In this document: positions 43,302 to 59,739 of the stretch, piece by piece
How the letters are laid out: each line of letters starts with the position of its first letter
Numbering within the stretch: the stretch's first letter is position 1
From: an uncultured Prevotella sp.
GTDB lineage: Bacteria > Bacteroidota > Bacteroidia > Bacteroidales > Bacteroidaceae
DNA: 64,000 nucleotides
Reading direction: 5' to 3'
Assembly (NCBI GenBank): GCA_934230115.1
Contig: CAKQEI010000002.1
Span: forward strand, 5,642-69,641
The notes under the pieces: model-generated
What the model saw: only the letters and a program-made list of their open reading frames with translations
Told to the model about the DNA's origin: nothing
Databases searched by the model: none
Program-made: the position numbers and the translations under genes

Positions 43302-44483
43302 TTATTTCTTCAGTTCGATGCGGAATGTAGTTCCAACACCCACTTCTGAGCTTTTCACCCATATTTTTCCCTTGTGATACTCCTCTATGATACGCTTTGC
43401 GAGCGAAAGTCCAAGTCCCCATCCGCGCTTCTTGGTTGTGAATCCCGGTCGGAACACGTTGCGTATGTCTTTCTTGCGTATGCCCTTGCCCGTGTCAGCC
43501 ACCTCTATCACGACCTTCGTAGGCTCCTCGAATATCCTTAGCGTTATCGTGCCTTCGCCGCCCATAGCGTCAACAGCATTCTTCGAAAGATTTTCTATCA
43601 CCCATTCAAACAGCGACGCATTTATCTTGACCACTATGTCGCCTTCAGGAAAGTCGCGCACCATTTTCACCTTGTTTGACGTGCGGCGGTCCATATAGTC
43701 GATTACATGTTCCATCACCTCCTTAAGGTCGGTATCAACTGGTTCGGGCAACGAGCCAATTTTTGAGAATCTATCAGCAATGAGTTGCAGACGTTTCACG
43801 TCCTTGTTCATCTCTGGTATCAGATCGTCGTCGGGATAAGTCTCCTTGAGTATCTCCACCCACGCCATAAGGCTCGATATTGGAGTGCCAAGCTGATGGG
43901 CGGTCTCTTTAGACAGTCCCACCCACACCTTGTTTTGTTCTGCCCTCTTTGATGTGAGCAGGGCAAAGATGGCTATTACGACAAATATCATCACCACACC
44001 TAATTGTATATAAGGATAGGAGGCAAGTCGGCGCAGCATCACCGAGTCGTCGTAGCACACATTAATATAATCAGCCGATGATATACTGTCTGTGTTATTG
44101 TCGTCAATGGCAATACGTATATCTCGGTCTTCGCGCATAAGCTTGCGTCCCATATATTGCACAAAGCGCATGGTGTCCTCTGCGTTCTCACAATCCTTAA
44201 TGTCGATATTGCGATATGCCTGTACATTTCCATTCGAGTCAAGCACAATCACAGGGATTGTATTGTTGCCGTTGATAACCTTCAGCACAAGGTTTATGTC
44301 GGTGTTCTCGTCGGCACGGTTGAGAGTGCGCATTGCCTCTGCCCACACCTCCATTTTGTTGTGTTCCTCCATAGCAAGGTCGCGTATGAGGATATGCGAC
44401 ACAACAAGCGACGCCACGGCGATAACCACCGCGGCGAACACCAGTAATATCTTTACTCTACGTATTTGGTCGGTCCATTGCAT
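43302..44483 (-). CDS. Sensor histidine kinase (orphan)
   Basis: 393 residues starting at the ATG giving MQWTDQIRRVKI; an extension upstream is not kinase-like. Two membrane segments (about 11-31 and 158-177) bracket a periplasmic sensor domain of about 125 residues. The cytoplasmic part has an H-box SKETAHQLGTPISS with His196, an N-box (NLSKNAVDAM), G1 DTGKGI, an F-box region, and G2 GWGLGLSLAKR. There is no HAMP domain, no receiver domain and no adjacent response regulator. It is last in the long minus-strand run that starts with fimbrillin genes, after a Hanks kinase gene. Confidence 0.92.
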   Translation of the reverse strand: MQWTDQIRRVKILLVFAAVVIAVASLVVSHILIRDLAMEEHNKMEVWAEAMRTLNRADENTDINLVLKVINGNNTIPVIVLDSNGNVQAYRNIDIKDCENAEDTMRFVQYMGRKLMREDRDIRIAIDDNNTDSISSADYINVCYDDSVMLRRLASYPYIQLGVVMIFVVIAIFALLTSKRAEQNKVWVGLSKETAHQLGTPISSLMAWVEILKETYPDDDLIPEMNKDVKRLQLIADRFSKIGSLPEPVDTDLKEVMEHVIDYMDRRTSNKVKMVRDFPEGDIVVKINASLFEWVIENLSKNAVDAMGGEGTITLRIFEEPTKVVIEVADTGKGIRKKDIRNVFRPGFTTKKRGWGLGLSLAKRIIEEYHKGKIWVKSSEVGVGTTFRIELKK

Positions 44484-44572
44484 ATAAATGTATAACGCAA
44501 TTATCGACAAATTATTATTGAGGTTTATTGAATTAGTATTGCAATGAAAGCTCACACTAAATGATGAGAGCC

Positions 44573-45523
44573 TCACCAGAGACTACTATCCATCACCTTA
44601 TTGGCAGCTCCAGCAGAAACAGAATCGTTGTTTACGGTGTCTGCCGTTGTGGTTTGGCGTGCGTTCATCATCACACCAATGACGACAAGCAGCACCAATG
44701 CCAATGCTATGAGGAGGGCGTTCACCACGACTAACGATCTGCCCTTGTCAGCCATCAGAAGCCTCACCTGCGCAATGTCTGCAGGACGATGGACACAATC
44801 GGCTGTAGCACACTTCCGCCCCACCCTCACCAGTTGCTTGCTACGTACAGCCTCAGCCATATACTCCAACACCTTTCCAAACGAATAGATGTCGGCGCTG
44901 GGACTGCTTACAGCATTTGGCTGCAACTGCTCGGGGGCTATATAGCCACGTGTGCCAGCCGGAATCTTAAGCACGCAGAACGTCTCGCTGTCCGATAGTC
45001 CAAAATCTATCAGCTTTACGTCGCCGCCACGATGTGTAAGCATGATGTTCGACGGCTTGATGTCGCGGTGTACTATCTGCTTGGCGTGCATATACTCCAT
45101 AGCATCAAGCAGCTGAGCAGCTATCTTATGTACCACCTCTTCAGTCATCTTGCCGCCTTTCACAGCCGTCTCAAGCGTCTCGCCGTCCACATATTCCATG
45201 ACAATGCAGTCGCCCAATTCGCCCACTGACTCCATGCTTATAGTGCGGCAGATGTTGGGATGATCGAGCTGCAATCCTATCTCAAACTCCTTCATCAGCG
45301 CCTGACGATACACCGGCGTATAACGAAAATCAGTCTTCAGGCATTTCAGTACATAACGCTTGCCATACCTCACGGCTGTGAACATACGTGCATGGCCCGA
45401 CTTCGACACATAGCACTCGCTGATATTGGTGAATCCGTTGTCGGCTCGTGCTACGTTAAAATCCGATTCGCTATCTATGTCCACCACATATCCCGAAGTA
45501 GGGCGGTTTTCACTGTCATTCAT
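44573..45523 (-). CDS. Membrane-anchored Hanks-type Ser/Thr protein kinase
   Basis: 316 residues. The N-terminal kinase domain has the VLKCLK lysine (Lys60), HRDIKPSN (Asp154, an RD kinase), DFG (Asp173), GTRGYIAPEQ, and the DIYSFGKVLEYM helix. The Gly-rich loop is degenerate (SKSGHAR). A single membrane segment (about 264-286) follows, with a short 30-residue extracytoplasmic tail and no PASTA repeats. It sits 7 nt after a DNA-binding-like gene and 89 nt before the histidine kinase, at the end of the fimbrillin/LRR gene run. Confidence 0.92.
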   Translation of the reverse strand: MNDSENRPTSGYVVDIDSESDFNVARADNGFTNISECYVSKSGHARMFTAVRYGKRYVLKCLKTDFRYTPVYRQALMKEFEIGLQLDHPNICRTISMESVGELGDCIVMEYVDGETLETAVKGGKMTEEVVHKIAAQLLDAMEYMHAKQIVHRDIKPSNIMLTHRGGDVKLIDFGLSDSETFCVLKIPAGTRGYIAPEQLQPNAVSSPSADIYSFGKVLEYMAEAVRSKQLVRVGRKCATADCVHRPADIAQVRLLMADKGRSLVVVNALLIALALVLLVVIGVMMNARQTTTADTVNNDSVSAGAANKVMDSSLW

Positions 45524-45530
45524 AATCTGT

Positions 45531-46097
45531 CTAAATTATCTTTCTCACTATCGAAAGTCCGCCATTGCGTCCTGCTACAAAGGGTGGTGTACGTTCGCCA
45601 TTACGCTCTATATACGGCAGGTACAACGGCTGTTCCTTAATAAAACATCCTGTTACAAACATATCATCCGACTGCAACTTGCTGTTATGCGCTTCGACTA
45701 CACGATATGCACTATCGCCTATGTATTCAAGACGAAGCAGACGATTGGGTGCCCACCCTATCTCCACATTATCACCTCGCTCCAAATCGCTGCTCACAAG
45801 TTGGCAAGCATCAAAAAACGACGAATTGTAGCGTGTGCTGTTCTTCAGCCAAAGCATAAACGAGGCATAGTCCTTATGTCCTATATATGCCGATAGAGAG
45901 TCGAGGGTCAGCATGCGCGGCTTATGGCTGTCGCTGACATAGCCATACAGTCGCTTCAACGTCGACGGCGACACGGATATCTCATGACGGAGGCGCAGCT
46001 TCACCGAGAACTCCTCAAAGTCGGTGGTCGTGGTAAGGTGCTTGCCATAACGCTCCTCGACAAGTCGTTTCAGCTCTTCTATTTCTGGTGTGTTCAT
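45531..46097 (-). CDS. Putative DNA-binding regulatory protein
   Basis: 188 residues from the ATG (MNTPEIEELK); a GTG two codons earlier is possible but less likely. The N-terminal 75 residues are helical with ISVSPSTLKRLYGYV and LTLDSLSAYIGHKDYASFMLW, a pattern that looks like a Bacteroidota helix-turn-helix domain and recurs in the 74-residue protein at 41168. The C-terminal 110 residues are beta-rich (VEIGWAPNRLLRLEYIG, FIKEQPLYLPYI), perhaps an SH3-like or ligand-sensing domain. It lies 11 nt after the FN3-LRR lipoprotein stop and 7 nt before the kinase gene. Confidence 0.7.
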   Translation of the reverse strand: MNTPEIEELKRLVEERYGKHLTTTTDFEEFSVKLRLRHEISVSPSTLKRLYGYVSDSHKPRMLTLDSLSAYIGHKDYASFMLWLKNSTRYNSSFFDACQLVSSDLERGDNVEIGWAPNRLLRLEYIGDSAYRVVEAHNSKLQSDDMFVTGCFIKEQPLYLPYIERNGERTPPFVAGRNGGLSIVRKII

Positions 46098-46108
46098 AGT
46101 CACTTCAT

Positions 46109-47740
46109 TTAAATGTCATCAATTATATTCTCAAACTGGTCCCAGTATGACTTTGCCCGATAATACTTCTCCCTGCCTTTCGGCACATGCACACGGCACG
46201 TCTTCAGAAAGTCGGTAGCAACATTGGCAAATGTGTTGTCATAGCATACTGGTGGCAATGCAGCTCCGATGTAAATGTCAGTAAGCGGACAACCGTCGAA
46301 GACGTATTCGTTTATAATGACCACTTTCTTGCCAAGGCGCACCGTGGTAAGGTGGCTGCATTTCTGGAACAATCCGGAAGGCAGCTGCTTAAGGGTGGAG
46401 GGCAGCACCACTTCCTTCACCTTGCTGTTATAGAAGGCGCACATACCCAACTTGGTCAGTCCGTCGGAGAATACGAATTTCTCTATGTTGCTTTCGCGGA
46501 AGGCATAGTCGCCCACGCTCTCTATGGTAGAGGGCAATGTGTATTCGCCCTTCTTGCCCATCGGGAACCAGAGGATGCACTTGCCATCGACACTCAGGAG
46601 TACGCCGTCCTTGCTCATGAAGTGAGTGTTGGCTGCCGACACGTCGATGGTCTCCAGCAACGTGCATCCTGCCGATGGACTTACGGCACTTACCGATGCT
46701 GGGATAGTGATGCTACGCAGAGAGGTGCAGTCCTCGAAGGCTTCCTTCTCTATCTTGACAGCTCCCATTGGCAGCTTGATGGTATTCAGACCAGTGCAAG
46801 CACGAAACAGACCTACGCCTATAACTCCGTCCTCTGTAAATCGTGATTCGCCATACTCGCCACCACCCGCAACGATGCTTGCTCCCGAGATGTCGAGGTC
46901 GGCAAGACGTCCGGCTGTAGGATGGTTCTCCTCGTCGCGTCCTGCCATGATGCGCAGCGTGCGCAGATCGTCGCCATTGAGCGGACCTACCAGAGAAAGA
47001 CTGGTAAGATTGAATATCTGGTCGCCGAGGAGGGTGGAAAGGATGCCTGACTTACCAAGCACGACGGCTGATGAGGTGGTGAACTGGATGGCTTCGCCTT
47101 CCGACTCGCCGATGCTGTTGACTGCAAATGGCTTGATGGTATACGTTATGTTGGGCTGCAGACCGTCAATAAGCAGACTGTACATTCCCTTGTCGTCAAC
47201 CTCATCACTCTGCATAATGGTCTTCTCGCCACCCTCGATGCCTTCGCCCAACACATGGCAACCGCAGGATGTAATGGGGTCTCCGCCATTGTCCGTGATG
47301 CTGTAGCCTACAATAAGGCTGACCGGAGCACTACTCAGCACTTCTGCCTTGCTTACCGTGGGGCGTTTGTTGGGCTGCGTGGCAAAGCTAACCATCTCGC
47401 CAGAAAGCGAGGCTGAACCGTTGGTGCCATGAAGCATATAATAATAGGTGGTGCCGGCATGGAGCGAGGATAGGTGCATACTGACATTGCCGTCGGCATC
47501 AGCCAATACTTCCTGCCTCTCAGACATGCTCTTGTCATTGCCATAACTGAACCAAAGACTGGGCATGTCCACTCCCTTGTCCTTGACACACTTGCCCGAC
47601 AGTGTGGCTTCTGTACGACTGATGTCCGTAGCCGGAAGCGTCTGGAGGCGAGGCTCAAAGTTGTACGGACTGTCGCTGCTGCAAGAGCTGACCATTACGA
47701 CAGCCATCAACAATAATATATAGAGAATACGATTATTCAT
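46109..47740 (-). CDS. FN3 and BspA-type LRR surface lipoprotein
   Basis: 543-residue lipoprotein (VSSC, Cys20). Two fibronectin-III-like domains (about 30-125 and 128-225) are followed by BspA/TpLRR leucine-rich repeats (about 300-490) with units such as IEKEAFEDCTSLRSITIPAS and IESVGDYAFRESNIEKFVF. The C terminus (VHVPKGREKYYRAKSYWDQF) is the usual end of these proteins. BspA-type repeats in oral Bacteroidota bind host matrix proteins or other bacteria, so adhesion is a reasonable guess. It lies 16 nt after the PEGA-like gene and 11 nt before the regulator gene. Confidence 0.88.
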   Translation of the reverse strand: MNNRILYILLLMAVVMVSSCSSDSPYNFEPRLQTLPATDISRTEATLSGKCVKDKGVDMPSLWFSYGNDKSMSERQEVLADADGNVSMHLSSLHAGTTYYYMLHGTNGSASLSGEMVSFATQPNKRPTVSKAEVLSSAPVSLIVGYSITDNGGDPITSCGCHVLGEGIEGGEKTIMQSDEVDDKGMYSLLIDGLQPNITYTIKPFAVNSIGESEGEAIQFTTSSAVVLGKSGILSTLLGDQIFNLTSLSLVGPLNGDDLRTLRIMAGRDEENHPTAGRLADLDISGASIVAGGGEYGESRFTEDGVIGVGLFRACTGLNTIKLPMGAVKIEKEAFEDCTSLRSITIPASVSAVSPSAGCTLLETIDVSAANTHFMSKDGVLLSVDGKCILWFPMGKKGEYTLPSTIESVGDYAFRESNIEKFVFSDGLTKLGMCAFYNSKVKEVVLPSTLKQLPSGLFQKCSHLTTVRLGKKVVIINEYVFDGCPLTDIYIGAALPPVCYDNTFANVATDFLKTCRVHVPKGREKYYRAKSYWDQFENIIDDI

Positions 47741-47756
47741 AATCGGTACGTTTTTT

Positions 47757-48812
47757 TTACTTGCGCTTTGTTATCATTCCCGTCTTTCCAAGACATATTC
47801 CTACACCTATACATCCCTGCCATTGCTTGCCTGCAATGGTCAGTGCCGACGCACTGAAGCTGAATCGTCCTACCGAAGCTACAACGCCAAGCTCTGCCGT
47901 AAAGCCTTTATGGCTGAACTCCTCGTTGCGTAGCCAACCGCCGCCCTCGCTGTCGGCAAGCTGCCATGCGGTGGTCTGACTGCCGTAGCCCACACCTTCG
48001 AATATGTTGAGCAAGCCATTCAGACGATGTATGCCACCCACGGTGAGGACATACGCAGAAGTCTGCGTGCGTCCGGTATAATAAGGAGTATTGCTGGTAG
48101 AGGGTCGATAGCCGTCGCTATTGCACGAACCTATCGTCGTAGGCGCCGAATGCAGATTGCTGCTCACATGCACATAAGCACCATGACGACGCATCAAGGC
48201 TGCCATTACGCCCCACGAGGGTCCGTCGGTATGGAGTGAGGCTGTGAGCAACGTGAAGGCATGGAGCTGAACTATGCGTCGGGGCGGTGCCACGGTTACG
48301 GTGTCGACGATGGTCTGGGTGTATACTATAGTGTCGTGCTTCTCCACTACAGCGGTCTGTGGCAGGCGGAGGCGCATCTCGTAGGTCATGCGACTCTCAA
48401 GCTTCGTGCCGAACTTATAGTCGCGCAGCACTCCCCATTGAGGATGTTTCAGCGTTATGCTCTTGGTACCCTTGGGTAGGAAAAGCCATATCTCGCCCAC
48501 CTTGTCGCGACGTTCTACAATGCCTAAGGGCGAAGAGAAGGCAAAGTCGGCAGGTGCCACTACCTTGAGCAGTGCGCACGCCTCGCCGTTAAGGTCGCGT
48601 ACGGCATCGATGAAGGCGCTCACGTCGGTAGGCAACTGACGGAAGCTTGCCACCGTAAAGGTGCTGTCTGCCGCTGCCGGCACGACTGTCGCCACCGAAG
48701 CCTTAGCATCGCTCAACGACAGACACGACAATATCATAGTATACACCACGCAAAGCATAACTTTACGTAGCGTAAAGGACAACTTTACATATGCCTTCTT
48801 TATACTTTTCAT
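47757..48812 (-). CDS. PEGA-like domain protein with a C-terminal beta-rich region
   Basis: 351 residues with an N-terminal signal or membrane segment (about 15-35). Next comes a domain of about 85 residues (LNGEACALLKVVAPADFAF then GEIWLFLPKGTKSITLKHPQ and GVLRDY) that I recognize as a recurrent Bacteroidota module resembling PEGA domains. The C-terminal half is Gly/Ser/Tyr/Thr-rich with alternating hydrophobics, consistent with outer-membrane beta strands. The stop-to-start gap to its upstream neighbour is 1 nt, so the two are tightly coupled. Function unknown. Confidence 0.75.
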   Translation of the reverse strand: MKSIKKAYVKLSFTLRKVMLCVVYTMILSCLSLSDAKASVATVVPAAADSTFTVASFRQLPTDVSAFIDAVRDLNGEACALLKVVAPADFAFSSPLGIVERRDKVGEIWLFLPKGTKSITLKHPQWGVLRDYKFGTKLESRMTYEMRLRLPQTAVVEKHDTIVYTQTIVDTVTVAPPRRIVQLHAFTLLTASLHTDGPSWGVMAALMRRHGAYVHVSSNLHSAPTTIGSCNSDGYRPSTSNTPYYTGRTQTSAYVLTVGGIHRLNGLLNIFEGVGYGSQTTAWQLADSEGGGWLRNEEFSHKGFTAELGVVASVGRFSFSASALTIAGKQWQGCIGVGICLGKTGMITKRK

Positions 48813-48813
48813 A

Positions 48814-49845
48814 TTACTCTAAATTAAAGTCGGATATTTCAATTACTCCATCACTACCACTTACAGTTGCCGACGGCTGCCACGTGCGCACATGGATGAG
48901 TGGCATGGAGGCATTGCGGAAGTCCCACAGCAGAAACAGCCAGCCGTCGTCGGCATAGCGGTCGCTCTGATAGCGCTGGCGCAGCGACACTCCGTAGATG
49001 CCGTCTTTCGTGGGATGGCGCATTATGCGGAAGTCGGAGAAGCGCACGTCCACCTTCTTGTTCATGCCGAACACCTTGGAGAGTCGCGAGAGATAGTCGG
49101 CCTTGGTATGGAGGGCGTAGCTCACACGGCTGTCAGCGCCCACCTTGGCTTCATCCTTCGACTGACGTACTACGTTGCCCACAATAATGAGCGCGTCGTT
49201 GCTGAACACCTGACGTAGGAAGTCGATGTCCTTCGTGGTGTATGCCGTGCGCAGATGCTCGCAGTAATTGAGTATCTGACGGCGGCGTGTGGCGTCGGTT
49301 TCCTCCAGCTTTCCGCTTATTATCTTGGAAGCCTCAGCATAGAACGGACTGTTGTGCGCCATCGTGCGCACGTCCACAGCTGGCAGTCTCACCTCCTTAC
49401 GGCTTACTTTAGCAGCAGATTGCTGACCATGCACATCCTCCGCACTACCGTCGATGGCAGATGTCTGCCCCTCAGGTGCTGTCATTGTAGGCTGCAAGGA
49501 GTCGGCTGACGTAGCGGTAAAGACCACGATGCCCTGCATGTCGACATATCCTTCACGACCCGTAGACAATTCGCGGAAGCGCAGACGACCGCCACGAAAC
49601 TGTGTGTCGAGCATACATCCACGCAGCGGGATGCGGAACATCACGTTGCCACGCGCGTCCTCCACCACATACTGTCGTTCGCCGTTGGTCATGGTCTGCT
49701 CCACAAGCTGCATGCCCTCGCTCGTGCCGTAGCGCGTCTCGGTCGTCACATTATTATATTTTCCAATAGGCAGCACCCACAAAGCCACTGCCCACAAGGA
49801 AAGAATCAGCACAAGGGCTGATAATACATACGTTATTTTCTTCAT
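48814..49845 (-). CDS. Membrane-anchored protein with NTF2-like C-terminal domain
   Basis: 343 residues with one N-terminal membrane segment (about 7-28), a linker with short repeats (about 35-150), and a C-terminal domain of about 160 residues. That domain contains QILNYCEHLRTAYTTKDIDF, FSNDALIIVGNVV, IMRHPTKDGIYGVSL, WLFLLWDFRN and IHVRTWQP. It reads like a SnoaL/NTF2-type fold found in many Bacteroidota proteins of unknown role. It lies 10 nt after a fimbrillin gene and 1 nt before the PEGA-like gene, so it may help process or anchor the surface structure. Confidence 0.75.
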   Translation of the reverse strand: MKKITYVLSALVLILSLWAVALWVLPIGKYNNVTTETRYGTSEGMQLVEQTMTNGERQYVVEDARGNVMFRIPLRGCMLDTQFRGGRLRFRELSTGREGYVDMQGIVVFTATSADSLQPTMTAPEGQTSAIDGSAEDVHGQQSAAKVSRKEVRLPAVDVRTMAHNSPFYAEASKIISGKLEETDATRRRQILNYCEHLRTAYTTKDIDFLRQVFSNDALIIVGNVVRQSKDEAKVGADSRVSYALHTKADYLSRLSKVFGMNKKVDVRFSDFRIMRHPTKDGIYGVSLRQRYQSDRYADDGWLFLLWDFRNASMPLIHVRTWQPSATVSGSDGVIEISDFNLE

Positions 49846-49855
49846 TCAGAAAGTG

Positions 49856-50752
49856 TTATTGCCAGTCCTTTATCTCACCGCCGATTTCTATCTTCACTTG
49901 CTCGGGGTCTTTTGAAATGATAAGGTTGACAAGATTTTCCACACCTGGTTTATAATTGAATCGGCTCTCATAGAAATAGCTCACACCGTTTACCTCCACT
50001 TCAAGGAATGGCATACTTGTAGTGATGTTCTGCGGCACGACGATGGCAGAATAGCTGGTCTCGTCGTCCTGATGAGCTATGATGCTCTGGCGTGCCATCC
50101 TCGGATTGTACGTGACGATGCCTTGGCGTAGGTCGACTGTGGCAGAGGTGAAGGTGCTGTGTATATACACCTTGGCTTTGGTGGGCAGCTCGCCTTCGAA
50201 GTCCTCGCCCTTTATCAGGCGTATGCGTAGCTTGCTCATGATGTGATGAAACAAAAGAGCAACGGGCGAATCCGACGCTGTGACACTCTTCTGCGAAGCA
50301 AAGAGCAGGTCGCTCGCCTCATAGCCACCAAGCGATGTGGCTGTCTTCGGGGTGTTTTGGTCGAGAGCCACGCTGAAAGGCTGACTGTCGAGACTGAGCA
50401 CTTTATCCATGCGTGGACAGATGGCATAGACATTGAATGTGCCGTCGTCCCAATAGAGGGGACGTACTGATGTCCATTTGTCGCCGTCGTAGGTCAGCGC
50501 ATCGTTGTTGGCAAGATTGCCTCCCAACTCCATTGGTTTTTCAGTGTTTGCCACATACAGTCCTATGCGGTCGCCTATCTCGAAGTCGGTTTCCGTGGCA
50601 CGTGTCTGCGACGGATGCTTCACAACGAACGTCATCGGCGTCGACTTGGCATCCTTGTATTGCGGATTGGCATCATCTGAGCAAGCCGCAAGAAACGCTG
50701 CCCCTACAATGCTGACACTCATACAAGCCCACCTTATTATATTATTCTTCAT
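49856..50752 (-). CDS. Fimbrillin-family (Mfa-like) lipoprotein
   Basis: 298-residue lipoprotein (LAAC, Cys24) with the fimbrillin layout. The N-terminal beta domain contains the Arg of SQTRATETDFEIGDRIGLY, where such pilins are often cleaved. Then come WTSVRPLYWDDGTFNVYAI, GGYEASDLLFA, LLFHHIMSKLRIRL, and a second domain with YSAIVVPQNI. The tail ends IKDWQ. Fimbrillins assemble by strand exchange after N-terminal processing. There are 62 nt between it and the upstream hybrid gene. Confidence 0.85.
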   Translation of the reverse strand: MKNNIIRWACMSVSIVGAAFLAACSDDANPQYKDAKSTPMTFVVKHPSQTRATETDFEIGDRIGLYVANTEKPMELGGNLANNDALTYDGDKWTSVRPLYWDDGTFNVYAICPRMDKVLSLDSQPFSVALDQNTPKTATSLGGYEASDLLFASQKSVTASDSPVALLFHHIMSKLRIRLIKGEDFEGELPTKAKVYIHSTFTSATVDLRQGIVTYNPRMARQSIIAHQDDETSYSAIVVPQNITTSMPFLEVEVNGVSYFYESRFNYKPGVENLVNLIISKDPEQVKIEIGGEIKDWQ

Positions 50753-50814
50753 TCTTTGTCTTGTTTATTATTATTACGTTACTCACATTCACTGCTGCAG
50801 CCTGCATTTCTGCT

Positions 50815-52998
50815 TCATTTTGCAATAATGTGTTTAAAGCCCGACCAGGATTCTGACGACTTATAGTCATTTAAAGCAGACTTAGGCACTATAACAGTAA
50901 GGTCTTCTAATAGAACTCCATCAAAAGCTCCGTCATTCACAACTGGAGGAACTGTGCTCTTACATTCAACTACGCGAAGCGATTTGCAATCTTGGAAGGC
51001 ACCCACATCGATTAACTCAAGACCGCTTGGCAATATTATCTTTTGAAGATTTTCGCTATTTGAAAATGCCCATTCATGAATACACGTAACTCCCTCAGGT
51101 ATCTCTGCCTCCCCAGTAAAAGCGCAATTTAAAAAAGCAAATGATGAAATGCTTAGCAATCCCTTGGGTATCTTAAAGCTTCCTGAGAAGTAATTTCCTT
51201 CGAAGTTGCTACCTCCAAAAACTATAAGACTCTTCGGCAATTCAAGTTCGCCTATGAATCCGTTATCACGAAATGCCCATTCACCTATAGCAGTGATGCC
51301 ATCATGCAACTGTAGTCTGCCTCCAAACCCACAACCCCCAAAAGCACACGAGGGTATAACGGTCAAGGATTTAGGAATCACAAGGTCGCCTTTCAAGCCA
51401 GTACAACCATGGAAAGCACTTGAACCTATCTTCTTCAGATGACTTGGCAATATCAGATTGCCATACAGATACTGACAATTATAGAAACAACTACCTCCAA
51501 TTTCCTCGATTCCATCCGGCAGATTCAATGGACATGCAAAACCACACTCTGAAAAAGCAGAAGCGTCTATCTTCTTCAATGTGGAAGGCAATGTCAGGAC
51601 ACCGATAAAGTCGTTGTTTGTAAAAGCATTATCGCCAATCTCTACCACACCTTCAGGAATATTTAGAGAGCCCGTCAGACCTGCACCGTCAAAAACCCTT
51701 GGATTAATACGCTTAAGAACGTCAGGAAACACAAAGCTTGTCAGCGTTTTTTTATCTTTGAAACAAAAACCAGGCAATACATCATCGTCAGCTTTATCTG
51801 GCCAATACTGCTCTCCCCCAAACATATAGCTGTATACTCCTTTTATTCTTACATCCTTTAGATTTAGAGCCGTAAGATTTGGCATACTGTCGCGCATAAT
51901 TCTAAAATCACGCGCATTAATGGTACCGGTCACCTTCATGCGTTTCACCTTGGTAAGATCCTTATGCGAAGCTGCTATCGAGTCATTTAGATGTCCGGCA
52001 GTGGTGTTGATAACGACATACTCCGTAGCCGTGGCATCATGGCTTTGGATATCATCCTCCCAAGGGGCAATGCTCTCGCTTACAAGCGTGAGACGATACT
52101 TGCCACTACCCTCGGCCTTGTCCACTCTGATGTTGAACTTCATCATCTTGCCCGACACATAGGTAAGCGCCTCGTTCTTCGCAAACTTGTAAGGTGCACC
52201 ACCTATGGTGATGCTGAAGAGCGTTGTGCCTGCCGGGACGGTCTGAGGCACTACGATGGCACGCCATTCATTGTTCACTTGCGAGGGAATAGTTGCCGAC
52301 GACTCCACATCACCTGCCACTTTCACGGTTCCATCCGTCATGTTTATGCTTGCCTTACGCGCCAGATTGGTGGCAAGCACTGTCTTATCTATGCTTTCCC
52401 ATTCGCTATCGGTGAAACCCTCGCCCTTGAGCAGCTTCACGCAGGCACTCGACATACGGTGTCTCAGCAGCAGACGCAAGGCAGCATTGGAGGGAGCTAC
52501 GTCGCTCAACTTGCCCCATAGGAAGTCGCTCGCTTCATAACCGCCCATCTTGCCGTCGGCAGTAGCGGTGCTCTGGTCGCGCTGTACATTAAAAGTATAG
52601 TTGTCGATGCTTTCGGGGTTGGCGTATGGATAGTAGCCATAAACGTCTATATGGGTATGATTGTCCTTCCAGTAAACGTCTTGGTCTGAATTCCATTTAC
52701 GGTTGGCTTCATCGTAAGTGTAGCATACATTGTCGGCACGGTTGCCACTCTGTTGTAATGTGCCGGGAATGTCGGCATTATAGTCAACAATGTAGATACC
52801 AATTCCGTCGCCGTCGCAAAAGCCACCGTCGTTGACACGTGTCACCGCCACCGGGTCTATCTCGCCCGAAAGCTCAATACGACGGGTATGGTGCTGTGTG
52901 CCGTCTTCGCCGAACAGTCCGTCAGCGCAACCGGCACACAACACCACACATACCATTATGGCAATGTATATAAGAATGTTTATGTATTTTCTTATCAT
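50815..52998 (-). CDS. Fimbrillin-LRR (BspA-type) hybrid lipoprotein, copy 2
   Basis: 727-residue lipoprotein (CAGC, Cys24). Residues about 30-330 are a fimbrillin-family domain pair (VTRVNDGGFCDGDGIGIYIV, VYWKDNHTHIDVYGYYPYA, GGYEASDFLWGK, LLLRHRMSSACVKL, WRAIVVPQTV). Residues about 400-690 are BspA-type leucine-rich repeats (GVVEIGDNAFTNNDFIGVLT and similar), ending with the NDYKSSESWSGFKHI motif. It is a close paralogue of the upstream gene and overlaps it by 4 nt (ATGA). A pilus-tip adhesin is a plausible role. Confidence 0.87.
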   Translation of the reverse strand: MIRKYINILIYIAIMVCVVLCAGCADGLFGEDGTQHHTRRIELSGEIDPVAVTRVNDGGFCDGDGIGIYIVDYNADIPGTLQQSGNRADNVCYTYDEANRKWNSDQDVYWKDNHTHIDVYGYYPYANPESIDNYTFNVQRDQSTATADGKMGGYEASDFLWGKLSDVAPSNAALRLLLRHRMSSACVKLLKGEGFTDSEWESIDKTVLATNLARKASINMTDGTVKVAGDVESSATIPSQVNNEWRAIVVPQTVPAGTTLFSITIGGAPYKFAKNEALTYVSGKMMKFNIRVDKAEGSGKYRLTLVSESIAPWEDDIQSHDATATEYVVINTTAGHLNDSIAASHKDLTKVKRMKVTGTINARDFRIMRDSMPNLTALNLKDVRIKGVYSYMFGGEQYWPDKADDDVLPGFCFKDKKTLTSFVFPDVLKRINPRVFDGAGLTGSLNIPEGVVEIGDNAFTNNDFIGVLTLPSTLKKIDASAFSECGFACPLNLPDGIEEIGGSCFYNCQYLYGNLILPSHLKKIGSSAFHGCTGLKGDLVIPKSLTVIPSCAFGGCGFGGRLQLHDGITAIGEWAFRDNGFIGELELPKSLIVFGGSNFEGNYFSGSFKIPKGLLSISSFAFLNCAFTGEAEIPEGVTCIHEWAFSNSENLQKIILPSGLELIDVGAFQDCKSLRVVECKSTVPPVVNDGAFDGVLLEDLTVIVPKSALNDYKSSESWSGFKHIIAK

Positions 52999-55160
52999 TC
53001 GACAGTTTTTAATAATAAACCCGACCAGAAATCTGACGACTTATAGTCATTTAAAGCAGACTTAGGCACTATAACAGTGAGGTCTTCCAATGGGACTCCA
53101 TTGAAAGCTGTGCTCCTCACAACTGGAGGAACGGTGCTCTTACATTCTATTACGCGAAGCGATTTGCAAGATTTGAATGCGTAATCATCGATTAACTCAA
53201 GAGTGCTTGGCAAGATTATCTTTTGCAGATTTTCGCTATTATAAAAAGCTCCTTCACCAATAGACAGAATACCTTCTGGGATCTCCACCTCACCCGAGAA
53301 AGTGCAGTGAGCAAAAGCTGATGATGAAATTTTTAGCAATCCCTTGGGTATCTTTAAGCTTCCTGAGAAATAATTTCCATAGAAGTTTCCACCTTCAAGT
53401 ATTGTAAGACTCTCCGGCAATTCAAGTTCGCCAATGAATCCGTTATCACGAAAAGCATCTTCACCTATAGCAGTGATGCCATCATGCAACTGTAATCTGC
53501 CTCCCAACCCACATTCGTAAAAAGCGTCCGGGGGTATAACGGTCAAGGATTTAGGAATCACCAAGTCACCTTTCAAACCCGTACAACCACGGAATGCGCA
53601 CCTATCCATATTCTTCAGATGACTTGGCAATATCAAATTGCCATACAGATTACGACAATCCTCAAAACATCCCCATCCTATTTCCTCGATTCCATCCGGC
53701 AAGTTCAATGGACATATAAAACAACACCCATTAAAAGCATAATCGTCTATTTTCTTCAACGTGGAAGGTAATGTCAGCACACCTGTAAAATCGCTGCCAG
53801 CAAAAGCCCCACGACCAATTTCTACCACACCTTCGGGAATATTGAGCGAGTGCTTTAGACCGGAGCCGGCAAAAGCACCACTTTCGATACCCTTTAGAAC
53901 GTCTGGAAACACAATGCTTGTCAGCGATTTCTTTCCTCTAAAACAATCAGAAGGAAATTCATCATCTTTAAAATCATGAATATTAAAGCCACTGGTCGGG
54001 GCTTTGATTCTTACATCCTTAAGGTTTAGAGCCGTAAGTTTTGGCATGCTGTCGCGCATCATTATGAAATCATACCCATTAATGGTGCCGGTCACCTTCA
54101 TGCGTTTCACCATGACAATATCCTTATGCGAAGCGGCTATCGAGTCCTTAAGATGTCCGGCAGTGGAGTTGATAACAACATACTCCGTAGCCGTGGCGTC
54201 ATAGCTTTGGAGATCGTTCTCCCAAGGGGCAATGCTCTCGCTTACAAGCGTGAGGTGGTACTTGCCACTACCCTCGGCCTTATCCACTCTGATATTGAAC
54301 TTCATCATCTTGCCCGACACATAGGTAAACGCCTCGTTCTTCGCAAACTTGTAAGGTGCTCCACCTATAGTGATGCTGAAGAGCGTAGTGCCAGCCGGAA
54401 CTGTCTGAGGCACTACGATGGCACGCCATTCATCGTTCACTTGCAAGGGAATGGTAGGCGATGACTCCACGGAGCCTGCCACTTTCACGGTTCCGTCAGT
54501 CATGTTTATGCTTGCCTTACGTGCCAGGTTGGTGGCAAGCACCATCTTGTCTATGCTTTCCCATTCGCTATCGGTGAAACCTTCACCCTTGAGCAGTTTC
54601 ACGCAGGCACTCGACATACGGTGTCTCAGCAGCAGACGCAAAGCGGCAGTGGTGGGTGCTACATCGCTCAACTTGCCCCAAAGGAAGTCGCTCGCCTCAT
54701 AACCGCCCATCTTGCCGTCGGCAGTGGCAGTGCTCTGGTCGCGCTGCACATTAAAAGTATAGTTGTCGATGTTTACGGATTGGGCGTATGGATAATAGCC
54801 ATATACGTCAATATGGGTATGAAAGTCCTTCCAGTAAACATCATAGTCAGAATTCCATTTACGGTTGGCTTCATCGTAAGTGTAGCATACATTGTCGGCA
54901 CGGTTGCCACTCTGCTGCAGTGTGCCAGGTATACCTGCCTTATAGTCAACAATGTAGATGCCCATTCCGTCGCCGTCGCAAAAGCCACCGTCGTTGACAC
55001 GCGTCACTACCACCTGGTCTATCTCGCCCGAAAGCTCAATACGCTGTGCGTGGTGCTGTGTGCCGTCTTCGCCTAACAGTCCGTCAGCGCAACCGACACA
55101 CAACACCACACATATAGTTATGGCAATGTATATAAGAAAGTTTATGTGTTTCCTTATCAT
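52995..55160 (-). CDS. Fimbrillin-LRR (BspA-type) hybrid lipoprotein, copy 1
   Basis: 721 residues from the ATG giving MIRKHINFLIYIA; a further 20 upstream codons overlap the neighbouring gene and lack a signal peptide. Lipobox CVGC, Cys24. The domain order is the same as in copy 2: fimbrillin-type N-terminal part, then LRRs and a final NDYKSSDFWSGLL. The fimbrillin part is almost identical between copies, while the LRR part differs more, chiefly in the repeat around the first LRR (copy 1 lacks several residues). It lies 34 nt after the first fimbrillin gene. Confidence 0.87.
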   Translation of the reverse strand: MIRKHINFLIYIAITICVVLCVGCADGLLGEDGTQHHAQRIELSGEIDQVVVTRVNDGGFCDGDGMGIYIVDYKAGIPGTLQQSGNRADNVCYTYDEANRKWNSDYDVYWKDFHTHIDVYGYYPYAQSVNIDNYTFNVQRDQSTATADGKMGGYEASDFLWGKLSDVAPTTAALRLLLRHRMSSACVKLLKGEGFTDSEWESIDKMVLATNLARKASINMTDGTVKVAGSVESSPTIPLQVNDEWRAIVVPQTVPAGTTLFSITIGGAPYKFAKNEAFTYVSGKMMKFNIRVDKAEGSGKYHLTLVSESIAPWENDLQSYDATATEYVVINSTAGHLKDSIAASHKDIVMVKRMKVTGTINGYDFIMMRDSMPKLTALNLKDVRIKAPTSGFNIHDFKDDEFPSDCFRGKKSLTSIVFPDVLKGIESGAFAGSGLKHSLNIPEGVVEIGRGAFAGSDFTGVLTLPSTLKKIDDYAFNGCCFICPLNLPDGIEEIGWGCFEDCRNLYGNLILPSHLKNMDRCAFRGCTGLKGDLVIPKSLTVIPPDAFYECGLGGRLQLHDGITAIGEDAFRDNGFIGELELPESLTILEGGNFYGNYFSGSLKIPKGLLKISSSAFAHCTFSGEVEIPEGILSIGEGAFYNSENLQKIILPSTLELIDDYAFKSCKSLRVIECKSTVPPVVRSTAFNGVPLEDLTVIVPKSALNDYKSSDFWSGLLLKTVE

Positions 55161-55194
55161 GTGATAGTAATTAATAATATACATGTTACACAGA

Positions 55195-56178
55195 TTATTC
55201 CTCAGTAGCCGTTCCACCATAGTCCACGTCGTCTGCGTCCCATCCGGTTATGGTGGCGTTCAAGCCGTCGCTTTCCTTGACAAGTGTGACATTGACCGTA
55301 TAGCTTTTGCCACTTACAAAATCGAAAGCCTTGGAGAACACGAAGTCATGTCCATCCACATTCACATTTATCAGATTGGTCTGCTCTACTTGCTGCGGCA
55401 CAACTATGGCACGATAGACATTGCCGTCCTTGTATGGTGTCATCGGAGTCATAGTCAATGACTCGCCATCATAATTCATAATAGGCTCCACCTCGCCCGT
55501 TGCAAGGTCTATATTGGCACTTACGGCTGGTATGTTAAGCGTCACCTTAACATCCGAAGCAGCAAGCGACGCATCGGTGAATCCTTCGCCTGGCGTCAAG
55601 ACTATCGCCACTCTACTCATCACTTGCTTTAACGCAATGTGGACAATCGTCTGTCTTGGCACCACGTTCATCGTAGAGCCTACCATAACATCGGAATTGT
55701 TATAAGAGTTGATATTGCTTTGGTCTGCCTCTACTTTAAACACCATAGGGTTCTCGTTAATGTGTGTTGCCTGATAAGGATAATACAAATAAAAATCAGC
55801 ACGCGTCTTTTTATCCTTCCAATACACAGTCTCGTCGGGAGTCCAATACACAGTCTCGTCGGGAGTCAAAGCACTGTGAGCATACGTATAGCGCATATTG
55901 TCAACATAATTGCCCGACGGCTTTAGGTCATTATGCGAACCGTCATCGTTACGATTTACTACATATAGTCCTATAGCATCGTCATTCGTAAATGCAGATT
56001 CGGTGACACCAATTATAGAGGTGCTGATGTCAATGGGTATACGCACTGTTGGTTTTTCGGGCTGCGGAGGTGTAGGCTCATCGTCCACACCGTTTTCTGC
56101 TCCCGAAGAGCAAGTCAACAGAAAGAAACTGACAGCAGCAATATATAAGCACTTATTCAACAACTTATTTATTATCAT
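55195..56178 (-). CDS. Fimbrillin-family lipoprotein, first gene of the surface operon
   Basis: 327-residue lipoprotein starting at ATG 56178 (lipobox LLTC, Cys23); a TTG 3 codons upstream is ignored. A Pro-rich linker (PTPPQPEKPT) precedes the fimbrillin fold, with NDDAIGLYVVN, ADFYLYYPYQA, IVHIALKQVMSRVAIVL, VYRAIVVPQQV and a final ATITGWDADDVDYGG. An in-frame 24-bp tandem duplication (55821-55868) repeats TPDETVYW just before the KDKKTRADF motif. It is preceded by a good promoter and begins the ten-gene minus-strand run. Confidence 0.85.
   Translation of the reverse strand: MIINKLLNKCLYIAAVSFFLLTCSSGAENGVDDEPTPPQPEKPTVRIPIDISTSIIGVTESAFTNDDAIGLYVVNRNDDGSHNDLKPSGNYVDNMRYTYAHSALTPDETVYWTPDETVYWKDKKTRADFYLYYPYQATHINENPMVFKVEADQSNINSYNNSDVMVGSTMNVVPRQTIVHIALKQVMSRVAIVLTPGEGFTDASLAASDVKVTLNIPAVSANIDLATGEVEPIMNYDGESLTMTPMTPYKDGNVYRAIVVPQQVEQTNLINVNVDGHDFVFSKAFDFVSGKSYTVNVTLVKESDGLNATITGWDADDVDYGGTATEE
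55821..55868 (-). repeat. 24-bp tandem duplication inside the fimbrillin gene
   Basis: 55821-55844 and 55845-55868 are identical except for the last base. The repeat keeps the reading frame and duplicates the octapeptide TPDETVYW. Near-identity implies a recent slippage event. Confidence 0.9.
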
Positions 56179-56218: not shown

Positions 56219-56250
56219 CAAAATTACACAATTTATGTGAATACGACAAG
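56219..56250 (-). promoter_or_regulatory. Promoter of the fimbrillin/LRR operon
   Basis: Minus strand: CTTG (56247-56250) as -33, 20 nt spacer, TAATTTTG (56219-56226) as -7, about 41 nt upstream of the ATG. Confidence 0.6.
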
Positions 56251-56287
56251 TTCATAATAGTTCATATTAATAAAAATATACCGTTTG

Positions 56288-56319
56288 CTTGTAGGTTCCC
56301 TTGAAAAAGTGTATTTTTG
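56288..56319 (+). promoter_or_regulatory. Promoter of the frameshifted ATPase gene
   Basis: CTTG (56288-56291), 20 nt spacer, TATTTTTG (56312-56319). It lies 48 nt upstream of the ATG at 56368. Confidence 0.55.
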
Positions 56320-56367
56320 CAAAAACATATTTTCAGAAATCATTTTCTAAAAAATCATTTTCCTAAT

Positions 56368-57769
56368 ATGAAATTCGTAGACAGAAACAAGGAACAGAAG
56401 CGTCTTGAGAAGGCTTTCGGTTCAGAAACAAGTAAGTTTGTTGTCATCTATGGACGTCGTCGTCTTGGCAAATCTACGTTGCTCAAGAGGGGTGATAAAC
56501 GAAAACGACATCTATTTCGAGGCAGGACGTCAGGAAACTCAAGTCCAGATATCACTTCTTGCAGGGACAATAGCCCATCTGTACAGCGGCTTCGATATGC
56601 CCCTCTATCCGTCATGGGAGTCTATTCTTACGGTATTCAACAGAGTTTGCAAGGAAAAAACCGTACTTGTTCTTGACGAGTTTCCGTATATGGTGGAGAA
56701 GGATCCTTCATTACCGTCCGTATTGCAGAACATTATAGACAGCGGCACGCTCCGTTATCATCTCGTCATCTGCGGCTCGTCACAACGCATGATGCAGCAT
56801 TTTGTCCTCGACAAGTCTGACCCTCTCTATGGACGAGCCAATGAGAAAATCAATCTTCGCCCTATTCGTCCACAGCATTGGCAAGAGGCTATGAACCTTG
56901 ATGCCGTTAGCACCATAGAGGAGTATTGTGTATGGGGTGGAATTCCTCGCTATTGGGCGTTAAGGGAAGATTATGATTCTCTGAATGAAGCCATAGACCA
57001 ACTTGTGCTTGACGAGCATGGCATCCTTTTCAGTGAACCTACGGCACTGTTTATAGACGAGACCAACGATATAGCCCCATTCCAGTCTATCATGACCGCC
57101 ATCGGACACGGCAACACCAGATATTCTGCCGTTGCATCAGCCATAGGCAAGAAAACCACTGAAATATCAAAGCCGTTATCTGCCCTAACAGAAATGTCGT
57201 ACATCAGCAAGGATGTTCCTTTCGGCGAAAGCGAGGAGAAGACAAAGAAGACGCTATATGTCATAGACGACAACTTCATGGCGTTCTACTATACGTTCAT
57301 TGAGCCACACCGTTCGATGCTTGCTCTTGGCAGGACTGCGTTTGTGATGCAGAAGATAGAGAACGGATTCCCTGCTTTTGTCGGAAATATATGGGAGAAA
57401 TTGTGCCAGACTGCTGTTTCAGGCAACCAACTTTTGGGGCATACTTGGAATATGGCTCGCCGTTGGTGGGGAAAGGTACCCGTGTACGAAGAAGGACGCA
57501 AGACACCGATAGGATTTGAGGAACTGGAGTTTGATGTTGTGGCTGAGGCTGCAGACAACAAGGACACTATTCTTGTGGGAGAATGTAAATGGAAGTCGGC
57601 TGATTATGCAGACCGCCTTCTCTTGAAGCTGAAGGCAAAAACACAGAAGGCTCTGTTTGCGCAGGGCAAAAACATCATCTATGTGCTATTCCTAAAGGAG
57701 CCTCCTTTGTCCGAAGCCGACTGTCGTATGATGCTTCCTGATGAAGTTCTTAAATGCCAACCCGAATAG
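56368..57769 (+). pseudogene. AAA ATPase with C-terminal DUF234/PD-(D/E)XK domain, frameshifted
   Basis: The reading frame opens at ATG 56368 with KFVDRNKEQKRLEKAF and a Walker A YGRRRLGKST, and runs off frame at the GGGG run 56489-56492. The +1 frame then continues with NENDIYFEAGRQETQVQISL and the rest of the family: Walker B VLVLDEFPYM, ICGSSQRMM, YGRANEKINLRPI, and a C-terminal nuclease-like EELEFDVVAEA...ILVGECKWK. Removing one G restores an uninterrupted ATPase of about 466 residues. As it stands the ATPase lacks its P-loop in the long frame. A true mutation, phase variation at the G-run or a sequencing error are all possible. Confidence 0.85.
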
Positions 57770-57780
57770 CTTTCTTTTAA

Positions 57781-57798
57781 ATTACATCACCAAAACCA
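57781..57798 (+). repeat. 18-bp direct repeat, left copy
   Basis: ATTACATCACCAAAACCA, identical to 58933-58950. The two copies flank the Rpn-family gene with its promoter and terminator. Confidence 0.85.
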
Positions 57799-57825
57799 CC
57801 TCCGCATCATTGTCCTTTGGAAAAA
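57787..57825 (-). pseudogene. Remnant of the 3' end of a zinc-ribbon protein gene
   Basis: In the minus frame this reads FFQRTMMRRWFW and a TGA stop. It resembles the last residues of the intact 99-residue protein at 58939-59238 (EFLSRMMKRWFW, stop). The rest of the gene is missing, so this looks like a leftover of a duplicate copy. Confidence 0.55.
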
Positions 57826-57854
57826 CAATAGCGGAGACCGAAGTCCCCGCTATT
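57821..57854 (-). terminator. Terminator after the Rpn-family gene
   Basis: A 12-bp stem (57827-57838 with 57843-57854, one mismatch) closed on the minus strand by a TTCG tetraloop and followed by GTTTTT. Confidence 0.75.
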
Positions 57855-57895
57855 ATGAAAATCATATCGTACTGTTAGATAGTTCACGAACGAAA

Positions 57896-58858
57896 TTACA
57901 GTTTAAGATTCAGAATCTCTTCTTCCGACAAGCCCGATGCTTGCACTATAGTTTCTAAAGGCACTCCAAGAGAAAGGAGATTGGCAGCCATCTTTTCCTT
58001 TGCTTCTTTTTCGCCCTCAGCTATGCCTTTAGCCATGCCCTCAGCCATGCCTTTAACCATGCCCTCAGCCATGCCTTTAGCCATGCCCTCAGCCATGCCT
58101 TCCGCATGTCCTTCCGCATGTCCTTCCGCAAACTTCGTCTTCTCAGCCGTTCGTATGGCATTCACTATGTCGCGGTAGGCATTGACGCTGTCCTCGTACA
58201 TTTTTAGCTCCTGCTTATTAAACTTGGATATTTCAGCTTGCTCAAAAAGCCTTGTAAAGACACGCTCCTGAAGAGCTGCTGGGCGTTGCATAAGTCTGGA
58301 GAGATTCTTAAGCACATACATCCATTTGTCATACATCGTCACGAGTTCCGATTCCTGCTTGTCGAACTTCGGAATTTCAACATAGATATACGTCAGTTTG
58401 TCGTAGAATATCTCATGCGTGTCCACCTCCATCAGCTTTACTTCATGGTGCCATCGTTTGGCGTTCTCAAGTCCATCTGCAAAGTTGAAGTTCAGCAGAC
58501 CGATTGTATATACGGGGTTAAGATGGAAATCCCATTCTCCTCCACGCTGTGCCTGTTCACGAATGGGGAACGTAGAATAATATATAGTACGGTCCTTGAA
58601 AAACTCCTGATATACATTCTGCATCTCTACTATAAACTTCTCGCCCTTGTCGTTCTCGCAATATACATCGAAGATGGCACGTCGGGCATCAGCACGGTCG
58701 CCAAGTTGCTCAGAATTTAGATATGTGACATCTTGAACGTTCTGCTCGCCATGAAACATAGCGTTCAGAAAGCTGATGAGCAATTCCTTGTTAAACTCAG
58801 AACCGAAGAGTCGCTTAAAGCCAAAGTCAGTATGTGGATTAATGTATTTCTCTACCAT
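57896..58858 (-). CDS. Rpn/PD-(D/E)XK nuclease-family (transposase-like) protein
   Basis: 320 residues from ATG 58858 (MVEKYINPHTDFGFKRLFG); upstream in-frame codons lie in the promoter. The N-terminal PD-(D/E)XK core has the family opening TDFGFKRLFGSE, RRAIFDVYCENDKGEKFIVEMQ (the D..E-x-Q version of the nuclease motif), and YYSTFPIREQ. The C-terminal part is helical and carries 4-residue repeats (AEGM, AKGM, AEGH; coded 58017-58130), then a short EEILNL helix. Such proteins are annotated as recombination-promoting nucleases or PDDEXK transposases and have variable repeat numbers. The gene has its own promoter and terminator and is flanked by an 18-bp direct repeat. Confidence 0.88.
   Translation of the reverse strand: MVEKYINPHTDFGFKRLFGSEFNKELLISFLNAMFHGEQNVQDVTYLNSEQLGDRADARRAIFDVYCENDKGEKFIVEMQNVYQEFFKDRTIYYSTFPIREQAQRGGEWDFHLNPVYTIGLLNFNFADGLENAKRWHHEVKLMEVDTHEIFYDKLTYIYVEIPKFDKQESELVTMYDKWMYVLKNLSRLMQRPAALQERVFTRLFEQAEISKFNKQELKMYEDSVNAYRDIVNAIRTAEKTKFAEGHAEGHAEGMAEGMAKGMAEGMVKGMAEGMAKGIAEGEKEAKEKMAANLLSLGVPLETIVQASGLSEEEILNLKL
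58017..58130 (-). repeat. 12-bp in-frame repeat tract in the Rpn-family gene
   Basis: About nine degenerate 12-bp units coding AEGM/AKGM/AEGH tetrapeptides. Alternate units are most alike, giving a 24-bp higher-order period. Length change would keep the frame. Confidence 0.85.
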
Positions 58859-58884
58859 AACGCTGCTATTTATTATTTCATCAG

Positions 58885-58915
58885 CAAATATACAGCATTT
58901 TTGTTGATTTACAAA
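58885..58915 (-). promoter_or_regulatory. Promoter of the Rpn-family gene
   Basis: Minus strand: TTTG (58912-58915), 19 nt spacer, TATATTTG (58885-58892). It lies 26 nt upstream of the ATG; a close match to consensus. Confidence 0.7.
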
Positions 58916-58932
58916 CATTTGCTGGCAAAAAT

Positions 58933-58950
58933 ATTACATCACCAAAACCA
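58933..58950 (+). repeat. 18-bp direct repeat, right copy
   Basis: Identical to 57781-57798. This copy overlaps the 3' end of the intact zinc-ribbon protein gene. Confidence 0.85.
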
Positions 58951-59238
58951 TCTCTTCATCATTCTACTCAGAAATTCCTTGGTAATAGGGAAGCCCGAGG
59001 CATCGCCTACGACGGCGTCGATATGGCAGTAGGGGCATTCGGCTGTAGGTTCTTCGTCTGATATGTAGTCAGTTATTTCGGACGGCGGGAATATCTCGCA
59101 GCAGCTGAAGCAGCCGCAAAGTTTCGACTGCTCCAACTGTCGCTTGTTGCGGATGCTGCAATCGTGAGCTTGGCGAAACACATCCTCCTTCTCATCCTTT
59201 CGCATTCGCTTAAATGTGTCGTAAGTTAATTTTTTCAT
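58939..59238 (-). CDS. Small zinc-ribbon cytoplasmic protein
   Basis: 99 residues from ATG 59238 (MKKLTYDTFKRMRKDEKEDV); a longer frame upstream overlaps the next gene and is not convincing. Cysteines in KLCGCFSCCEIF and AECPYCHIDAVVGD could bind zinc, and the C terminus GFPITKEFLSRMMKRWFW is distinctive. I know similar proteins as scattered conserved hypothetical cytoplasmic proteins without an assigned function. It lies 19 nt after the 112-residue gene on the same strand. Confidence 0.75.
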   Translation of the reverse strand: MKKLTYDTFKRMRKDEKEDVFRQAHDCSIRNKRQLEQSKLCGCFSCCEIFPPSEITDYISDEEPTAECPYCHIDAVVGDASGFPITKEFLSRMMKRWFW

Positions 59239-59257
59239 AGTTTCCACATTGTCTTTG

Positions 59258-59596
59258 TTAGGTATGATATTGGTGTGTCTTCTTATAGTTAGTACCATCG
59301 CAGTTGACGATAGAGATTTCCAGCACCAATCCATCCAACTGATAGTCAGTCGGGATATTGATGGCACGTCTTACGATATCCATTTCTAAGAAGTTGCTGC
59401 CGTCCTTTTTGCAGAGCACAACGTCCAGATAGTCAGGCATGTCTGGTATAGTTCCTGGCTCCGACATTTGTGGCTGCAACTCCCCAAACGCTTCCTTCAC
59501 ATACTCATATATTCCCCGAGTATATTTTTCGATGTCCACCCCTACATAGCGTGTATAGGTGTATTTGATAATGCATAAAGACATTTTACCTGCCAT
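59258..59596 (-). CDS. Hypothetical protein
   Basis: 112 residues, or 108 if the second Met (MSLCIIKYTYTRYVGVDIEKY) is the start. No signal peptide, membrane segment or motif that I recognize. Mixed alpha/beta composition with EKYTRGIYEYVKEAFGEL and a beta-rich second half (LDGLVLEISIVNCDG). It is likely co-transcribed with the zinc-ribbon gene 19 nt downstream. I find no clear promoter. Confidence 0.6.
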   Translation of the reverse strand: MAGKMSLCIIKYTYTRYVGVDIEKYTRGIYEYVKEAFGELQPQMSEPGTIPDMPDYLDVVLCKKDGSNFLEMDIVRRAINIPTDYQLDGLVLEISIVNCDGTNYKKTHQYHT

Positions 59597-59654
59597 ATTG
59601 TTTTGTATTTCAGATTATACCTTATATAATATAGTAATATGAATGGAAAATTTC

Positions 59655-59692: not shown

Positions 59693-59739
59693 CATTCTGA
59701 TCTTTATTCTGAACAACTATCTATATATCTGTTGTCATA

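Follow-up and report, generated by a model that had tools for sequence, protein, structure and literature searches.

The window analyzed here is a 64,000-nucleotide stretch of DNA from an uncultured Prevotella sp. (assembly GCA_934230115.1, contig CAKQEI010000002.1). It contains a run of genes that joins fimbrillin and leucine-rich repeat (LRR) surface proteins to a small helix-turn-helix (HTH) type protein and a Hanks-type kinase. Ten open reading frames lie on the minus strand throughout, at the positions given by an earlier, sequence-only reading, which had taken them for a single ten-gene unit. Intergenic gaps along the run measure 62, 10, 1, 16, 5, 7 and 89 nt; two gene pairs overlap, one by 4 nt and the other by 26 nt if the longest open reading frame start is taken. 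The features, numbered by window position, are:

56247..56264, minus strand: operator TGAACTATTATGAACTTG, a TGAAC direct repeat that overlaps the -33 TTG, conserved upstream of fimA in relatives
56219..56226, minus strand: -7 box TAATTTTG, 20 nt past the operator
55195..56178, minus strand: fimA, fimbrillin lipoprotein (Mfa_like_1); alternative start TTG at 56187
52995..55220, minus strand: fimbrillin-LRR hybrid 1, without the BACON/M64 half of its relatives (Pfam, alignment)
50815..52998, minus strand: fimbrillin-LRR hybrid 2, 81% identical to hybrid 1
49856..50752, minus strand: fimB, second fimbrillin lipoprotein (Pfam)
48814..49845, minus strand: membrane-anchored protein with an NTF2-like domain at the C terminus
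47757..48812, minus strand: PEGA-like periplasmic domain (label unconfirmed by any library) and eight-stranded OmpX-like outer-membrane barrel
46109..47740, minus strand: FN3-like/LRR_5 lipoprotein
45531..46103, minus strand: HTH-type protein of 190 amino acids (aa), candidate operator-binding regulator; start perhaps ATG at 46097
44573..45523, minus strand: Hanks-type kinase with a single transmembrane segment near the C terminus
44550..44571, minus strand: degenerate terminator hairpin 3' of the kinase gene
43302..44483, minus strand: histidine kinase, a neighbor outside the module and part of a yceD-rpmF-fabH block

Pfam identifies Mfa_like_1 in four of the ten proteins, LRR_5 in three, and one protein kinase and one histidine kinase. 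The fimbrillin, LRR and kinase labels of the sequence-only reading are thereby confirmed, but its FN3 and NTF2-like (Cds6_C) domains score below Pfam cut-offs and its PEGA-like label has no library support. Four Mfa_like_1 proteins are thus encoded in one operon, and the sequences show hydrophobic N termini ending in Cys, in line with the several fimbrillin lipoproteins that mark a type V locus. For the 351-aa barrel protein and the 190-aa HTH-type protein, Pfam gave no match at E 0.1. AlphaFold predicts an N-terminal beta domain and an eight-stranded OmpX-like barrel for the former, the strand number of the OmpX/Ail type, and a five-helix HTH-like domain with a beta domain for the latter.

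We are highly confident that nine of these genes, not ten, form a conserved surface-appendage module. Species genomes were scanned with an alignment of the HTH protein; of 321 loci, the top 80 by HTH similarity (L001-L080) were used, and the Prevotella-type, Bacteroides-type and distant groups used below were assigned by us. The sequence-only reading had linked the surface genes to the Ser/Thr kinase and had treated a lack of conservation as evidence against this linkage. No such lack was found, and the order fimbrillin, fimbrillin-LRR, fimbrillin, NTF2, barrel, FN3-LRR lipoprotein, HTH and Hanks kinase recurs in Prevotella-type loci. All 28 of these loci carry the FN3-LRR gene, and 27 carry the kinase gene, 27 the PEGA-barrel gene and 27 the NTF2 gene, every one on the HTH strand. 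The kinase is likewise on the HTH strand in 26/26 Bacteroides-type loci, and the FN3-LRR (23), PEGA-barrel (21), NTF2 (21) and fimbrillin (22) genes lie there on the opposite strand, tail to tail; the linkage therefore outlives the loss of a shared transcript. All 26 more distant loci have the kinase (21 within 2 kb), 14 a barrel-type gene and eight fimbrillins.

Selection by the HTH query is avoided in an independent sample of 121 genomes, evenly drawn from the family of G004, with G004 itself (the chosen centre, a carrier) included. Carriers, defined by a full PEGA-barrel match above 300 bits, number 11, with weaker matches in another 12 of the 121. The kinase is on the same contig as the PEGA-barrel gene in 11/11 carriers, and the HTH gene is adjacent to the kinase in 10/11. 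The module is patchy in distribution and mostly kept together, and the association of its nine genes, repeated in dozens of genomes, goes far beyond what chance would give.

The lower boundary of the proposed ten-gene unit was misplaced. The same-strand run goes on past the histidine kinase into yceD, rpmF and fabH (gaps of 39, 6 and 14 nt), and the histidine kinase belongs to this block, outside the module. Among 30 module genomes searched at E <= 1e-60, an orthologue was found in 17/17 of Prevotella type and 0/13 of Bacteroides type. It adjoins yceD in 11/17 loci and the Hanks kinase in 2/17, with contig ends cutting several flanks. In L. stercorea (L001), a strong intrinsic terminator (hairpin and T-rich tail; -19.0 kcal/mol, z -4.55) stands 3' of the kinase gene. 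The window has a weakened copy of it (-11.9 kcal/mol, z -1.5), and inspection by eye saw no such hairpin after the kinase gene of L010. The histidine kinase was left out of the module because it lies mostly beside yceD, was not found at E 1e-60 in Bacteroides-type carriers, and is preceded by this terminator in L. stercorea. Its membership in a self-sensing ten-gene unit, to which the shared strand, the 89-nt gap and the adjacency of the two kinases in L001 and L010 would point, is accordingly hardly tenable. The absence of a response regulator is borne out: Pfam found no receiver domain in the ten proteins, and thus no cognate receiver-domain protein of a two-component system.

The kinase matches Pkinase (E 1.9e-38), and its catalytic Lys, HRD Asp, Asn and DFG Asp are invariant in 23/23 kinases, with a non-canonical Gly-rich loop. 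By these catalytic residues it is a Hanks-type Ser/Thr kinase, and its catalytic domain is predicted to be cytoplasmic. In the family sample, 37/45 HTH genes have a kinase within 8 kb and 38/44 kinases have an HTH partner. These counts draw on 45 of 61 HTH rows, the 16 left out being the weakest, N-terminal or short matches, on 44 of 61 kinase rows and on 14 of 35 rows of a further search; adding one excluded kinase row that outscores the weakest kept (141 bits, 1262-aa frame) raises the former count to 38/45. The HTH-kinase pair is a partnership wider than the module. The HTH and kinase trees correlate (r 0.877), but species history confounds this comparison and it was not used. Across Bacteroidales, larger frames of roughly 320-900 aa also contain the N-terminal HTH segment (about residues 5-90).

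We also observed fusions of the kinase to extracytoplasmic domains. In L102, kinase, transmembrane segment and NTF2 domain form one 541-aa protein, encoded beside HTH and PEGA-barrel genes, and in L100, L101, L108, L119 and L126 LRR follows the transmembrane segment of the kinase; Pfam backs the fusions of L101, L102 and L126. The window kinase ends in no more than a short tail, and a separate protein anchored by a transmembrane segment bears the NTF2 domain. The Bacteroides homologue of the NTF2 protein in L029 carries WG repeats.

Upstream of fimA lies a nearly invariant 18-bp operator with the pattern TGAAC(C/T)ATTATG(A/G)ACTTG. In TGAACTATTATGAACTTG, the two TGAAC copies are 10 bp apart and the end of the operator holds the -33 TTG; it is the sole match in the window at up to three mismatches, itself with none (expected 0.15). 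The known -7 consensus is TAnnTTTG (PMC7366714). The loci yielded 56 unique sites with no more than one mismatch; the -7 box follows at 20 nt in 44 of them and at 21 nt in six, and is lacking in six. A sigma-70 scan was uninformative because Bacteroidetes use other boxes. Phase variation was also considered for a 10-bp inverted repeat around the window's -7 box and rejected, as the repeat is not in L. stercorea L130 and nine other promoters yielded no 9-bp arm pair.

In the 121 genomes, the exact operator occurs in eight, comprising 8/11 carriers and 0/110 others (Fisher p 1.8e-10, or 2e-9 without the chosen centre), and the reversed pattern has no exact match. Seven of the nine exact sites directly precede the first fimbrillin gene (G113, G014, G005, G016, G102, G132 and G004:C2), and the remaining two precede other genes (G012:C11 and G004:C9). 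Of 25 carrier genomes derived from the loci, 22 have the operator with no more than one mismatch. Among 17 of these that were inspected, 15 have it before a fimbrillin gene; the G013 site points away, and the two G028 sites seen precede no fimbrillin. In G003 and G024, a two-mismatch copy stands immediately before fimA, and G007 (L010) has an ISL3-type transposase gene immediately next to a fimbrillin that lacks its N-terminal part. At three mismatches the reversed control gives 6-24 matches per genome, so such sites count by position only. In 10/26 distant Bacteroidales loci, this promoter stands directly before the HTH gene; six of these ten belonged to the training set of the matrix, and L060, L066, L067 and L073 did not. 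An order-level scan that required the -7 box found the operator in 1/198 genomes (the chosen centre) and HTH relatives in 31/198, and the operator is therefore confined to the close HTH group. Further copies in L132, L133, L134, L137, L145 and L017 precede genes for TonB_C, zinc-ribbon, PvuRts1I-like, GTPase and unknown proteins, and possibly mark a wider regulon.

Several genomes offer natural tests of the link between operator and HTH gene. In G021 and G026, the HTH-kinase pair is 33 kb off or on another contig and fimA still has the operator. In G054, there is no HTH gene beside the kinase, and the fimA operator has decayed to three mismatches. G106 has two one-mismatch copies, one before an LRR/Big_2 gene beside the HTH gene.

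These observations lead us to favor, somewhat, an appendage module with its own kinase-HTH control circuit across the envelope, governing the appendage operon. We infer that the HTH protein quite likely binds the operator, at the TGAAC direct repeat, and it would recruit RNA polymerase in the manner of a class II activator. The inner-membrane Hanks kinase probably controls the HTH protein, presumably by phosphorylation. The kinase-NTF2 and kinase-LRR fusions suggest the layout of a signal line. It would start at the surface LRR and fimbrillin proteins, pass the barrel and its attached periplasmic domain and then the NTF2/WG protein, reach the kinase, and act by way of the HTH protein on the fimA operator; passage of the signal through the NTF2 and barrel proteins is a tentative part of this scheme. 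The state of the surface or appendage would thereby set fimbrial expression. The sequence-only reading had offered either a self-sensing appendage or phospho-control of its expression; control of expression is the likeliest role of the conserved kinase linkage, and the share given to the histidine kinase falls away.

Some observations weigh against this circuit. G030 has an HTH gene and a kinase, with a fimbrillin trio 360 kb away from them, and no operator at up to three mismatches; these fimbrillins without an operator slightly lower the odds of the circuit. The L017 operator points away from fimA, extra copies stand before unrelated genes (for PvuRts1I-like, TonB_C and zinc-ribbon proteins), and distant genomes with the HTH-kinase pair do not use this operator sequence. 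These same features, namely operator copies before unrelated genes, the commonness of HTH-kinase pairs without this operator, and G030, would be expected if another regulator bound the operator and the HTH-kinase pair were a separate cassette merely travelling with the fimbrial operon. We regard that as rather improbable, since the operator is restricted in its exact form to module carriers among the 121 genomes, lies directly before HTH genes in 10/26 distant loci, persists in trans in both G021 and G026, and is decayed in G054, where the kinase lacks a neighboring HTH gene.

The kinase could instead work in the envelope or in assembly, phosphorylating appendage-pathway or cell-envelope proteins, with the HTH protein merely regulating the operon. 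Its fusions to extracytoplasmic NTF2 or LRR domains and the persistence of surface-gene linkage on either strand agree with such a role, but its closest partner is the HTH gene, even without fimbrillins nearby, and its catalytic domain is predicted on the cytoplasmic side; this explanation appears unlikely. A toxin-antitoxin-like or anti-phage cassette is very improbable, even though a small HTH gene precedes the kinase gene, PADLOC defence-kinase models (mad6, PD-T4-6, Stk2) match the kinase, and the region upstream of the module contains candidate defence-type genes. The PADLOC matches span the kinase domain, as is expected of any Hanks kinase; no HipA family is among the Pfam matches of the kinase to E 0.1; and the linkage to surface genes and promoter is stable.

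More tentatively than for the circuit itself, we propose a distinct class of Bacteroidales transmembrane signalling, in which a single-transmembrane Hanks kinase and a cognate 190-aa HTH activator would be coupled to extracytoplasmic sensors (NTF2/WG, LRR, PEGA-barrel) that are either exchangeable or fused; in this branch, the system would act on a fixed direct-repeat operator in the promoters of surface proteins. Surface signalling is carried out by two-component and extracytoplasmic function (ECF) sigma/anti-sigma systems, which share the proposed route from outer membrane to transcription; here, in contrast, Pfam finds no receiver domain or sigma factor in the nine genes, and the kinase is of the Ser/Thr type. 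In PknH-EmbR of mycobacteria, a membrane Hanks kinase likewise adjoins a transcription factor gene, as the module's kinase adjoins a probable regulator gene, but the module has another HTH family, belongs to another phylum, and has a fixed operator at a surface operon. We know of no type V fimbrial locus with a kinase. Type V (Fim/Mfa) loci such as P. gingivalis Mfa1-5 (PMC5789003) similarly have several Mfa_like_1 lipoproteins per operon; they differ in that here a fimbrillin is fused to LRR (and in relatives to BACON/M64-like domains) and the locus also includes genes for the barrel, NTF2, HTH and kinase proteins. No description of this module was found in the open-access literature searched by title and opening of abstract; as far as searched, the control part is the previously undescribed one, and the fimbrillin surface locus itself is of a known kind. 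If the proposal is true, a eukaryote-like kinase fills the role otherwise taken by a two-component or anti-sigma system. To our knowledge, the switching of Bacteroidales surface fibres is poorly known and few targets have been assigned to their Ser/Thr kinases. The locus packages a kinase, a probable regulator, a precise DNA site and target genes, in genera that include cultured species; Bacteroides acidifaciens DSM 15896 and Butyricimonas synergistica DSM 23225 are among the cultured carriers.

The fimbrillin-LRR proteins vary among relatives. Most have one of about 1,170 aa ending in BACON and M64-like domains (Pfam for L002 and L030; alignment), and the window and L. stercorea each carry two shorter versions, neither with this half. 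An M64 remnant in the window was rejected, as tblastn gave at best E 0.38. G004 (L164:325-7382) has two full fimbrillin-LRR-M64 genes in tandem, and the duplication therefore arose elsewhere too. The M64-like domain resembles M64 peptidases such as BF3526 (PDB 4df9, relative 3p1v; PMC12402451), but relatives have HEXXXH rather than HEXXH, and the window proteins lack the domain. Of 53 M64-profile proteins, 43 have HEXXXH and the other ten fail the motif. L002:1725-5255, L030:17203-20568 and other relatives have a conserved HEAGGH...DE zinc motif, which exceeds the HEXXH of solved M64 peptidases by one residue. The activity of the domain is uncertain because HEXXXH replaces HEXXH. HEXXXH spacing is associated with M49 peptidases. 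M64 was rejected as a marker of the module, as PF09471 is in 105/121 genomes and thus not diagnostic.

Between a 142-aa gene (58939-59367) and fimA, within window positions 56317-61242, lie a DUF234/ATPase_2 gene split into two overlapping frames and a PDDEXK_2 transposase-type nuclease gene, with a PDDEXK_4 gene further upstream. In L. stercorea L130, a similar short gene seems to end directly upstream of the fimA promoter, and the DUF234/ATPase_2 and PDDEXK_2 genes of the window may therefore be an insertion.
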